NCBI GenBank assembly: GCA_947466075.1
Contig: CANIBP010000019.1
Location: forward strand, 1-64,000
Length of the DNA: 64,000 nt
From: Verrucomicrobiaceae bacterium
GTDB lineage: Bacteria; Verrucomicrobiota; Verrucomicrobiia; Verrucomicrobiales; Verrucomicrobiaceae
Direction: 5' to 3'
In this document: piece after piece, positions 519-7,012 of the stretch
Layout: every line of letters starts with the position of its first letter
Numbering within the stretch: position 1 is the stretch's first letter
Made by a program: the position numbers and the translations under genes
Notes under the pieces: generated by a model
Databases searched by the model: none
What the model was told of the DNA's origin: nothing
Seen by the model: the letters and a program-made list of their open reading frames with translations, nothing else

Positions 519-840
519 AATTCTGGCTCGCTGTTTGGAGCGAACATCTCCTGTCAGTTTTGCGCTTCTATTTCGCTTTAAAAGTGTCGTGGCCTGCCAC
601 CGAAAATGGTTCGGTTCGGTCGATAAAGGCGTGCCAAGACCCGCGTCGGCAAAGAGTTGCGCCAGTTCAAGTGGCGTGAACTGGATGGGATTTTACCGTT
701 AATTGATGACCACTTCTACCAAAGCGAACCGCACTATTTCCGGCCAACCAAACCAAGCAGCATGGTGAGAACTCTCCCAGGAGACTTTTTGGCCGATTGG
801 GAGCGCCTCATACAACCCAAACCGACGATTCGAATGGGCA

Positions 841-939
841 CGTTGGGCACGTTGGGCACGTTGGGCACGTTGGGCACGTTGGGCACGTTGGGCACGTTGG
901 GCACGTTGGGCACGTTGGGCACGTTGGGCACGTTGGGCA
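841..939. repeat. Tandem array, 11 perfect copies of 9-mer CGTTGGGCA
   Basis: Counted directly; translates as (GTL)n or antisense (NVP)n. Confidence 0.95.
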
Positions 940-1036
940 CTTCGTAGCTCTGCCAAACACGGGAGAAATTAAATACAGTGATATAGAGAAGAATAGAGAT
1001 AATAAAAAAGACGTACGTACAGACGTTAGGGAGAAA

Positions 1037-1063
1037 GTGCCCAACGTGCCTAATGTGCCCAAT
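1037..1063. repeat. Inverted 9-mer array gtgcccaac/gtgcctaat/gtgcccaat
   Basis: Reverse complement of the 841-939 unit, separated by an AT-rich spacer. Confidence 0.85.
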
Positions 1064-1067
1064 CGCA

Positions 1068-1210
1068 TGTTGATCACGTATCCGACTGATCTGCCCGCCT
1101 TTGCGGCAACCATACGCGCTTGCGCATCAGTGGCACTCGATCTGGAAACCCACGGCCCGCGCAAGGGCGGTGGTCTTGCTTGGGTTTCTGATTGGCTTGC
1201 CCCCCCCTAA
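1068..1210 (+). pseudogene. 5' fragment of DNA polymerase A-type 3'-5' exonuclease
   Basis: ITYPTDLPAFAATIRACASVALDLETHGPRKGGGLA resembles the Exo I (DxE) motif of phage/mobile polA; no remainder of the domain follows. Confidence 0.5.
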
Positions 1211-1544
1211 GATGCTGCAGGTCAGCCGAGAAAGGTGTCGAGATCCGTGTCGGCAAGGACTTGCACCAGTTCAAGGGCCGAGAACTGGATGAGATCGTGC
1301 TCACGATGGGCGACCATGCCAATATAAGCGAGCATCATCGTTTCCAGTTCACGAAGCGATGCGGCATGGCGAGAAATGTTCTGGGAGACTTTTTCGAATC
1401 CGTTGGAACAGCCAATCTGAGGCTCAACCACCTTCCAGCGATGGGCATTTCGTAGCTCTGCCAAACACGGGAGAAAATAATTACCCATATAAAAAGGAAA
1501 ATAGAGATAATAAAAAAGAGTACAGTACAGCCGGAGAGGAGGGA

Positions 1545-1571
1545 ATGCCCAGAATGGCCGATATGCCCAAC
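1545..1571. repeat. Second-module 9-mer array atgcccaga/atggccgat/atgcccaac
   Basis: Follows a second copy of the spacer 'ttcgtagctctgccaaacacgggagaaa'. Confidence 0.75.
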
Positions 1572-3427: not shown

Positions 3428-4035
3428 TGCACAACCATGACACTTGGGAAGCTTCCTCTGCCGTTTCAGCACACCTGCACCGTCGCTTATCACGGCTGAT
3501 CATCATGCGTGCGAACCAGACTTGCTAATCAGGGTTTAGCAGGCCTCATGGCTGTCTGCAGCGGCCTGCAACCTGACGGTGAGAGGAAGTGAGAAGGAGC
3601 CGGAAAATCAGAGGCAATGTCCCACATCAAGCCAGCGCGGGATGCTCATTTGGTAAGCATTTACGTGCTGGTGCAAGCAGCTGGAGGGGCAAATGTGCGC
3701 CTACCTGCTTGAACGTGGGGAGGCTTCATGACGGCCTGGAACACGAAAAAAAGTGGAAAGCACAAATTCGCGTTTGCATGGAATTTGCTTGGTGGGGCGC
3801 CTACCCAAGGTCACAGACGCGCACGGAAAGAGATTCCCTTGCACAGAGCGGCACACATCGGCACGCGGCAGCCTGCCAAGGCAATTCTCTAGCAGACGCA
3901 TGAATAAAAGCATCATCCCCATCATCACCGCCCTGTTACGCCGCTGGCTCCACTGCCATCAGCAGGTGCAACGAAAGAATTAGCCCGTCCCTTCGCAAAA
4001 CTGCGCCCTGAGCATCACCATGCGCATGAGCCACC

Positions 4036-4465: not shown

Positions 4466-4491
4466 GGTCTATTCCGATTCTTTCTCCACGC

Positions 4492-4665
4492 ATGAAACTC
4501 ATCCGCTTTGGCACCCACGATCACGAGAAACCTGGTGTCATCCTTGACGATGGACGCCGAATCGGCGTGTCGGCGTGTCGGCGTGTCGGCGTGTCGGCGT
4601 GTCGGCGTTTGGGGCTGATTATAACGAGTTCTTTTTTTGGTGGCGGCGGCATGATGATTCAATGA
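4492..4665 (+). pseudogene. Truncated N-terminus of FAH-family hydrolase (or leader ORF) coupled to glcD
   Basis: MKLIRFGTHDHEKPGVILDDGRRIGVSA is a typical FAH N-terminus; stop overlaps the glcD ATG at 4662. Confidence 0.65.
4563..4610. repeat. 8-bp tandem repeat: five CGGCGTGT plus CGGCGTTT
   Basis: Counted directly. Confidence 0.95.
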
Positions 4666-6071
4666 CCTCACCTGTGACTTCATCTCTCGAACAACAACTC
4701 AAAGCGTTGCTGCCTCGCGGGCGTGTGCTGACTTCGGCAGCTCAGCTGGCGGGCTATGGCGCGGATGGCCTGGGTTATAAGAACCACCTTCCTGACGCCG
4801 TGGTGATTCCGGCGGATGCGGAGGAACTCGCGGGCTTCATGCACGGGGCGAAGTCGCTGGGGGTGCCGGTGGTGATGCGTGGAGCGGGCACTTCGCTTTC
4901 GGGTGGACCGGTGGCGGCGCAGGGTGGTGTGATCGTTCACACATCGGCGTTGAAGAAGATTCGGGAGATCAATACCGAGGGCTTCTGGTGTGAAGTCGAA
5001 TGCGGTGTGGGACTCAATGATCTTGATGCTGCGCTGAAGCCGCATGGCGTGTTCTATCCGCCTGATCCATCGAGTGGTCCGGTCTGCACGCTCGGTGGCA
5101 ATGTGGCGTCGAACGCGGGTGGCGCGCATTGTTTTCGCTACGGTGTGACGAGCAATTATGTGCTCGGAGTCGAGGCCGTGATGCTGGATGGCAGCGTGCA
5201 TCGCTTTGGCGGTCCTGCGGGTGGTCGCGGGCCTTGGCGTGAGGATTGGAAACGCTTCATGATCGGCTCCGAAGGCACTCTGGCGGCCTTCACGCGTTTT
5301 TGGCTAAGACTGCTGCCGCTGCCGGAGAAAGTGTGGACCTTCCGTGCGACCTATCCCGACATGAAAACCACCGAGGCGGCGATTCATGCGTTGGTGGCGC
5401 ACTCGTCGTATCCAGCGGCGATCGAGATGCTTGACCCGCGTGGCGTGGCGATGGTGGAGAGCAGTCAGATGGCTTGCGGATTGCCCGAGGGCTCGTTCAT
5501 GCTGCTGGTTGAGATTGATGGTCCTGAGGCGCTGGTGAATGCTCGCGTGCAGTCAGTCGCCGAGCTTTTGCGTCAGGCAGGCTCGAATGATGTGATGTTC
5601 AGCGATGAGGATGCACTTCGCCAAAAGCTCTGGAAGGCACGCAAAGCTGCGGGCGGACTGCTGGGGCAACTCAGCCCCGCATACGTGGTGCAGGACGCCG
5701 TGATACCGAAGCGGGCCTTGGCCGAGGTCCTGCAACTTGTCTATGATGAGGCCGATGCCGCGAATATTCGCGCGGTGAATGTCTTCCACGCAGGCGACGG
5801 CAATCTGCATCCGAACTTCCTCTTCGACTCGCGTGTTCCGGGGGAACTGGAGAAGGTGGAACTCATCAGCAAGCGTCTCATGCAGCGCGTCATCGACGTC
5901 GGCGGCACGCTCAGCGGTGAGCACGGCATCGGCAATGACAAGTCCGCTTACATGCCGCTGGTCTTCGGGCCGGACTCAATGCGTCTCCAACTCTCCGTGC
6001 CAGCCGCATTCAATCCCGCGCATCAAATGAATCCGCTCAAGGTTTTCGACAGTCGCCACTTCATCGCATGA
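4662..6071 (+). CDS. glcD: FAD-linked oxidase, glycolate/D-lactate oxidase GlcD-like
   Basis: FAD_binding_4 motif VMRGAGTSLSGGPVA and C-terminal GDGNLHPNFLFD...GEHGIGNDK. Confidence 0.88.
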   Translation: MTSPVTSSLEQQLKALLPRGRVLTSAAQLAGYGADGLGYKNHLPDAVVIPADAEELAGFMHGAKSLGVPVVMRGAGTSLSGGPVAAQGGVIVHTSALKKIREINTEGFWCEVECGVGLNDLDAALKPHGVFYPPDPSSGPVCTLGGNVASNAGGAHCFRYGVTSNYVLGVEAVMLDGSVHRFGGPAGGRGPWREDWKRFMIGSEGTLAAFTRFWLRLLPLPEKVWTFRATYPDMKTTEAAIHALVAHSSYPAAIEMLDPRGVAMVESSQMACGLPEGSFMLLVEIDGPEALVNARVQSVAELLRQAGSNDVMFSDEDALRQKLWKARKAAGGLLGQLSPAYVVQDAVIPKRALAEVLQLVYDEADAANIRAVNVFHAGDGNLHPNFLFDSRVPGELEKVELISKRLMQRVIDVGGTLSGEHGIGNDKSAYMPLVFGPDSMRLQLSVPAAFNPAHQMNPLKVFDSRHFIA

Positions 6072-7012
6072 ACGTCTTTCCTCCCATGCAGCACGAACGG
6101 CTCTTTGCACCCTTCCTGGATGAAGTGGATGGCACGCTGTGCCTTCCCGCGAATGCGACAGCGTCTGACATTCGATCTCAAGCTCGGACGCATCGCCTGC
6201 GCTTTCCGCTTCTTTTGGATGAGGCAAAAACTTTGCGCGATCAAATTGCCGCTACCACTCATGCGCCAGCGTCGTGCCGATTCGGACCCTATTGCGATAA
6301 CATCCTCGGCATGAACTGGCGGCTGCCGAGTGGACGGATTGCGCGCATCGGAGAGCGTGTGGTTAAAACCACGACCGGTTATGACTGGCTCCGCTTCCTG
6401 CTGCACAGCGGCTCGCGCTACGGCGAGCCTGTGGACTACGTTTTGCGGTTGCGGCCTGATTGTGGATGCACAGCCATCGCCCGCTTCGACGGAGACACCA
6501 AGGCTTTGCGCTCCTGTGTATCCAAACTACTTCACGGCGGCTGGATGCACTGGTGGGATGCGGTGGATTTCATCACGGAAAGTGGGGCATCGTTCGTCCG
6601 TGTGATGATCCATTGCGTGCCAGAGGAAGCGTCCATCTTTGCTCAGCAACTCGAACGCATCGCCGCATCGACGAGCACTCAGCTTACGCTGCAAAGCAAC
6701 GTGCCTCCGCCCTTTGATGGTCTTCCCGATCTCGTGATCAAGACGACGCCTGATCGTGTCATCGGTCTCGCTGCGGAACTCGCGCACGCTGCGCGGCGTA
6801 GTGTGGCGCTGTGCTACAGCGGTGTCGTCCACGTTTACATGAACGAGAGCGAAGACCTCACCGAGCGCACTCAAGCTCTCGTGCAGCCTTACACCGCAGA
6901 ACTCCACAGCCTCGGCGGCGACTGGCACTCGCGCTGGTTGCCTGCCACGCCGCCAACCATCACCGAGTCTGCCTGGCTCAACACGCTGGAGGAAGCCATT
7001 CATGAGCACTGA
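6068..7012 (+). CDS. glcE: FAD-binding subunit, GlcE-like
   Basis: Position between glcD and glcF; RFGPYCDNILGMNWRLPSGRIARIGERVVKTTTGYDW. Confidence 0.75.
   Translation: MNVFPPMQHERLFAPFLDEVDGTLCLPANATASDIRSQARTHRLRFPLLLDEAKTLRDQIAATTHAPASCRFGPYCDNILGMNWRLPSGRIARIGERVVKTTTGYDWLRFLLHSGSRYGEPVDYVLRLRPDCGCTAIARFDGDTKALRSCVSKLLHGGWMHWWDAVDFITESGASFVRVMIHCVPEEASIFAQQLERIAASTSTQLTLQSNVPPPFDGLPDLVIKTTPDRVIGLAAELAHAARRSVALCYSGVVHVYMNESEDLTERTQALVQPYTAELHSLGGDWHSRWLPATPPTITESAWLNTLEEAIHEH

Follow-up and report, generated by a model that had tools for sequence, protein, structure and literature searches.

Decayed replicase fragments in a Verrucomicrobiaceae genome as probable remnants of iteron origins carried within a fused primase-helicase-polymerase gene

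The 64,000-nucleotide stretch analysed here (hereafter the window; positions 1 to 64,000 of contig CANIBP010000019.1, Verrucomicrobiaceae assembly GCA_947466075.1) carries near its start two related, repeat-bearing copies of the same module. All features are on the forward strand unless stated. Adjoining this remnant is a small excisionase-like open reading frame (ORF) at 285-518 (Pfam HTH_17, 5.6e-7; excisionase-type PHROGs). In copy 1, the remnant of a helicase C-terminal winged helix (630-834, including AKTRVGKELRQFKWRELDG; match 630-848, 48%) precedes a left arm of 9-bp units (835-940), an AT-rich spacer (941-1036), a right arm of three opposed 9-bp units (1037-1063) and the truncated start of a 3'-5' exonuclease/DNA polymerase A part (1064-1192, including VALDLETHGPRKGGGL; protein match 917-1192, 55% to the intact gene of the relative G002). 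The left arm is expanded to 11-12 exact units, against about three in intact relatives: Tandem Repeats Finder (TRF) reported 11.8 copies with 100% match at 835-940, and exact matching placed 11 CGTTGGGCA units at 841-939. The right arm consists of GTGCC[C/T]AAN units (GTGCCCAAC, GTGCCTAAT and GTGCCCAAT). Copy 2 comprises a second winged-helix remnant (1225-1410; match over the same positions, 61%), a single left unit (GATGGGCAT, 1440-1448), an AT-rich spacer (1449-1544), a right arm of three units (ATGCCCAGA, ATGGCCGAT and ATGCCCAAC, 1545-1571) and the polymerase part, cut off by a stop after its first codons (1572-1604; protein match 1443-1604, 83%, stop inside). Two spacer blocks of 28 bp (TTCGTAGCTCTGCCAAACACGGGAGAAA, at 941 and 1449) and 17 bp (TAGAGATAATAAAAAAG, at 994 and 1502) are identical between the copies, and an upstream gtcggcaa...gaactggat block is common to both, with substitutions. 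The repeats, the shared blocks and the eleven-fold left arm of copy 1 thus lie where the original prediction had placed them; its plural left-arm 9-mers hold for copy 1 only, since the left arm of copy 2 is one unit.

The arms of copy 1 are complementary well beyond coding expectation (inverted-repeat score 23, at most 11.5 in 300 codon shuffles), and as single-stranded DNA this copy folds with z = -7.7. Arm complementarity in copy 2 alone was not significant in the codon-shuffle test because its left arm is down to one unit. A third copy, on contig C97 of the same genome (C97:5267-5394), has complementary arms that beat 300 of 300 shuffles; additional copies lacking complementarity, the refuting case then envisaged, did not occur. 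An ORF similar to the HTH_17 one lies near this third copy (C97:6907-7125), and a TerS-like protein (weak match to PHROG 57, 2.4e-5) stands beside it. None of the three copies is intact: copy 1 changes frame between the helicase end and the linker (ORFs at 657 and 797), copies 2 and 3 are interrupted by stops, and a protein match search found no intact fused replicase gene in this genome. The three copies are truncated remnants of a replicase gene, and the two in the window do not make up a working duplicated module; copy 2 and the G003 copy, being so decayed, were not counted as evidence. A common stretch round TGGTGGGGCGCCTACCCAAGG with GGAAAGAGATTCCCTTGCAC, found at 3760-3905 of the window and in reverse at L003 390-520, adjoins both remnants and might be an old element end. 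Further along, at 4562-4608, the 8-mer TCGGCGTG, whose sequence is unrelated to the iterons, is repeated without error 5.9 times just before a FAD-linked oxidase-like ORF.

The nature of the source gene emerged from a same-genus relative (G002), where the window spacer matches the linker inside one ORF of 1,473 codons (L017:6188-10606) with the domains PF09250, PF01612 and PF00476, i.e. Prim-Pol, 3'-5' exonuclease and DNA_pol_A. Across the relatives, this ORF of about 1,470 codons is ordered as Prim-Pol, AAA+ helicase, winged helix, array, 3'-5' exonuclease and family-A DNA polymerase. The conserved blocks of the original prediction are coding: the helicase part ends with gtcggcaaagagttgcgccagttcaag...gaactggat, the linker corresponds to the spacer, and the exonuclease begins after the right arm (VALDLETHG in copy 1). 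In fused homologues from Prosthecobacter and other Verrucomicrobiota, the linker is read through with no stops; a two-gene junction was rejected, the intact copies being one ORF. The exact spacer had no match in viral_contigs.

Opposed arms recur at nearly all junctions of intact and decayed homologues, each arm measuring 19-37 nt (48 in one), and nearly every intact homologue has three units per arm, mostly with a 9-bp period and in opposite orientation. The AT-rich stretch between them spans about 50-115 bp (mostly 87-114, and 52-64 in two elements), with an AT fraction mostly of 0.5-0.78 (0.42 in L077). Unit cores vary from element to element (GGGCAT, GCGCAT, GCGCAC, GGGCAC, GGACAC, GCAAAC, GGGGAT and others), and the strict 9-bp step is not kept in two elements (L062 and L067). 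At 14 of the 18 junctions, the opposed arms outscored every one of 300 codon shuffles; the remaining four were L073, L078, copy 2 and c4. Among fused genes added by a wider search, the arrays of L133, L134 and L135 exceeded all shuffles, the arms of L136 only equalled the shuffle maximum and those of L108 were weak. Two opposed iteron sets round an AT-rich region are present in all intact fused homologues except the weak L108 (L136 being marginal), and in several unfused ones. When arms were swapped among 16 elements, cognate pairs scored 18.7 on average against 5.6 for non-cognate pairs, and none of 20,000 permutations was as good, so that the match within copies and divergence between copies, first noticed in the window, proved general. 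A tandem-repeat artefact was rejected, as unrelated elements show the same pattern with units of their own. The same fate befell a single recent duplication followed by drift, which the original prediction had named as a refutation: the units of copy 1 differ from those of copies 2 and 3, copies 1 and 3 stay complementary, and other genomes repeat the pattern.

Such arms could also act through their structure, as a DNA cruciform or single-strand hairpin recognised as a nicking or single-strand initiation site, and not only as opposed duplex iterons. Pairing of the arms as a DNA-strand hairpin is possible: besides the fold of copy 1 given above, the arms frequently match in register with inter-unit triplets and variant units included (L133, 33 of 34; in L066 a variant GGGCGT unit stands opposite ACGCCC). 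In some elements this match of the inter-unit triplets (L071, 23 of 23) is more than required of independent iterons, and speaks against the origin-iteron reading. The arms of L077, L079 and c4, however, match equally well or better with a one-unit shift, and the comparison of in-register and shifted pairing is biased, because arms were picked at their best register, and was not relied on. Moreover, each arm is built of short direct repeats, like the iterons of phage-inducible chromosomal islands (PICIs), and the neighbours examined included no relaxase or HUH nuclease. Recognition by structure is, on balance, unlikely.

RNA-level explanations fare worse. Several right arms open with ATG or GTG preceded by a purine-rich stretch (e.g. 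GGAGAGGAGGGAATG in L017), as would be expected if mRNA structure in the linker regulated translation or allowed a separate polymerase part to be made from an internal start. Yet arm mismatches show no G.U excess (10 G.U-compatible versus 12 A.C-type), a canonical start codon is absent at the right arm in L062 and L077, and unfused relatives have the same array past the stop codon, outside any coding linker; we find this explanation scarcely credible. The structured non-coding RNA of the original prediction was rejected for want of the same G.U signature and for the in-frame position of the arrays inside the replicase ORF.

The helicase part was modelled with AlphaFold (alignment A1, 16 homologues; pLDDT 82). 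The C-terminal element of the modelled fold is a winged helix (helices 334-343, 348-353 and 359-371; strands 380-385 and 393-398), with the array directly after it. The best solved structures in Foldseek were the NrS-1 helicase region, PriRep1 with double-stranded DNA (7pds) and SCCmec Cch (5dgk), at E-values of about 1e-7 to 5e-6 (4e-7 with a low TM-score for 7pds). As whole-model TM-scores are low (about 0.3-0.4), the relation to PriRep1 rests on Foldseek E-values and domain order, and it is in this sense that the predicted model resembles SaPI-type PriRep1. A search of PDB sequences with the A1 profile gave nothing meaningful, and only the fold search linked the helicase to PriRep1. In SaPI Rep, the C-terminal domain is used for iterons directly downstream (PMC7581432). 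By analogy, we infer that the adjacent winged helix would read the iteron array.

A possible trace of this specificity lies in one residue at the start of the recognition helix. It is Thr in eight elements that have C as their sixth core base (L071, L103, L106, L082, L135, L105, L136 and copy 1), and His or Ile in six that have T there (L101, L104, L017, L062, L133 and copy 2); L134 (Lys, C) and L108 (Thr, mixed) fall outside the rule. The association (Fisher p = 0.0006 for a 6:7 split), seen post hoc and with kinship ignored, is a prompt for a test only; with these same reservations, a one-residue/sixth-base trace of winged-helix specificity is suggestive.

The array keeps its place even where the polymerase part is missing. 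Unfused helicases of the same family (L080 and L083) and more distant ones (L114 and L143) have three-by-three opposed arrays directly after the stop codon, 66-72 nt past it in L080 and L083, while in fused genes the array lies roughly 40-180 nt past the helicase profile match. More distant unfused helicases often had no array within the 450 bp searched. The same layout was read in the sequence of the experimentally tested PICI origin of EcCICFT073, where CTGTCTACC units in 9-bp tandem lie in both orientations round AT-rich DNA, directly after pri-rep. We take the unfused relatives to decide the reading in favour of a putative origin, and the resemblance of an AT-rich spacer beside 9-mer iterons to an origin, already remarked upon in the original prediction, was the right lead. 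Iterons bound in other systems can also repress, and opposed repeats recognised by a single protein might equally act as operators for autoregulation of the replicase or as partition sites. Both roles are highly improbable here: the arrays lie more than 2 kb inside or after the gene and not at its promoter, no ParA or ParB was seen among the neighbours examined, and position and layout agree with PICI origins.

The neighbourhood of the fused gene is that of a mobile element. Upstream lie a PD-(D/E)XK exonuclease and a Dda/PIF1-type helicase; a tyrosine integrase adjoins the gene in G011 and G118 and was not seen at the other loci examined; and among the cargo are AbiEi/AbiEii (G011), HmaA/HmaB-like genes (G012) and methyltransferases (G118). 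Integrase and cargo neighbours place the replicon in integrative elements. The fused-replicase elements of L103, L105 and L106 adjoin HmaA/HmaB-like, AbiEi/AbiEii and methyltransferase genes, suggesting that such elements carry defence cargo.

A second type of array (type B) is found close to the window remnants. Its 9-mers (AACTCGGGA, AACTCGTAT, GTTCCC-type) occur in both orientations round a small TTTA-loop hairpin: array B1 (1915-2066) has AACTCGGGA units round a CCCCCTTTAGGGGG hairpin, and array B2 (2249-2423, TRF) has AACTCGTAT units round a CCCTTTAGGG hairpin, the unit differing between the two window copies. Further type-B arrays were located in L014 (about 5550-5760 and 6230-6450) and L070 (601-860), and in L070 and C97 they lie close to where a separate polymerase gene begins. 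Each window array adjoins a C-terminal piece of a TerS-like/HTH protein (near 1757-1891 and 2110-2200); the first, on the reverse strand at 1757-1891, was identified by sequence identity to a complete protein at C97 (L014) 4482-5078 with weak PHROG matches.

Taken from sequence comparison and a predicted fold, the modules most likely derive from iteron origins of an integrative element, bound by the adjacent winged helix and carried in frame within a fused replicase, and the window copies are probably remnants of such a mobile-element replication origin. The C-terminal winged helix of the self-loading helicase would bind element-specific iterons, about three per arm, usually at a 9-bp period and in opposite orientation; two helicase assemblies would then load face to face, for bidirectional loading, the AT-rich stretch between the arms would melt, and that protein's own primase and polymerase domains would begin synthesis. 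The unit sequence of both arms would change together because one protein domain must read both. A more speculative idea, to which we give a small though tangible chance, is that the arms template each other, a hairpin at a single-strand stage allowing the polymerase to rewrite one arm from the other. If so, a new iteron would spread to both arms at once, 9-bp steps would keep the reading frame, and origin specificity could change along with the neighbouring winged helix; the pairing of Thr or His/Ile with the sixth core base is a possible trace of such templating with a change of specificity.

These results offer a sequence rule for finding candidate origins of uncultured mobile elements, namely opposed 9-bp arrays at the end of a helicase part, and would carry the origin layout of PICIs over to Verrucomicrobiota and to a protein-coding origin. 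Since this origin would also be protein-coding, its DNA words and the linker peptide must evolve together. Element-specific iterons beside their own winged helices make initiator specificity directly testable.

Among known systems, the closest likeness is to the origins of PICIs and SaPIs (EcCICFT073; PriRep of SaPIbov1 and SaPI5), with which the Verrucomicrobiota arrays share opposed short iteron sets, an AT-rich middle, a position directly 3' of a primase/helicase initiator, element-specific iterons, the 9-bp iteron period of EcCICFT073 and a related helicase fold; PICI origins are described as an AT-rich region with a set of iterons on either side, located 3' of the initiator (PMC6092414). 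Unlike these, the predicted origin falls within a single long ORF, its initiator having a family-A polymerase fused to it, and the host phylum is Verrucomicrobiota. An origin carried in frame within a primase-helicase-polymerase gene would thus be a new version of an architecture itself already known; a literature search confined to open-licence full text found no papers describing this fusion or its origin. The Cch2/CCPol-MP module of SCCmec likewise combines a self-loading helicase, binding sites just downstream and a family-A polymerase partner in one operon (PMC7581432). It differs in having separate genes, no Prim-Pol, and a Cch2 binding that depends on 23-bp direct repeats. As for bacteriophage lambda, its iterons form one direct set beside an AT-rich region, whereas two opposed sets are present here, and the initiators are different. 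What the two would have in common is an iteron origin lying within the sequence that encodes its own initiator, gene O in lambda (PMC6022878).
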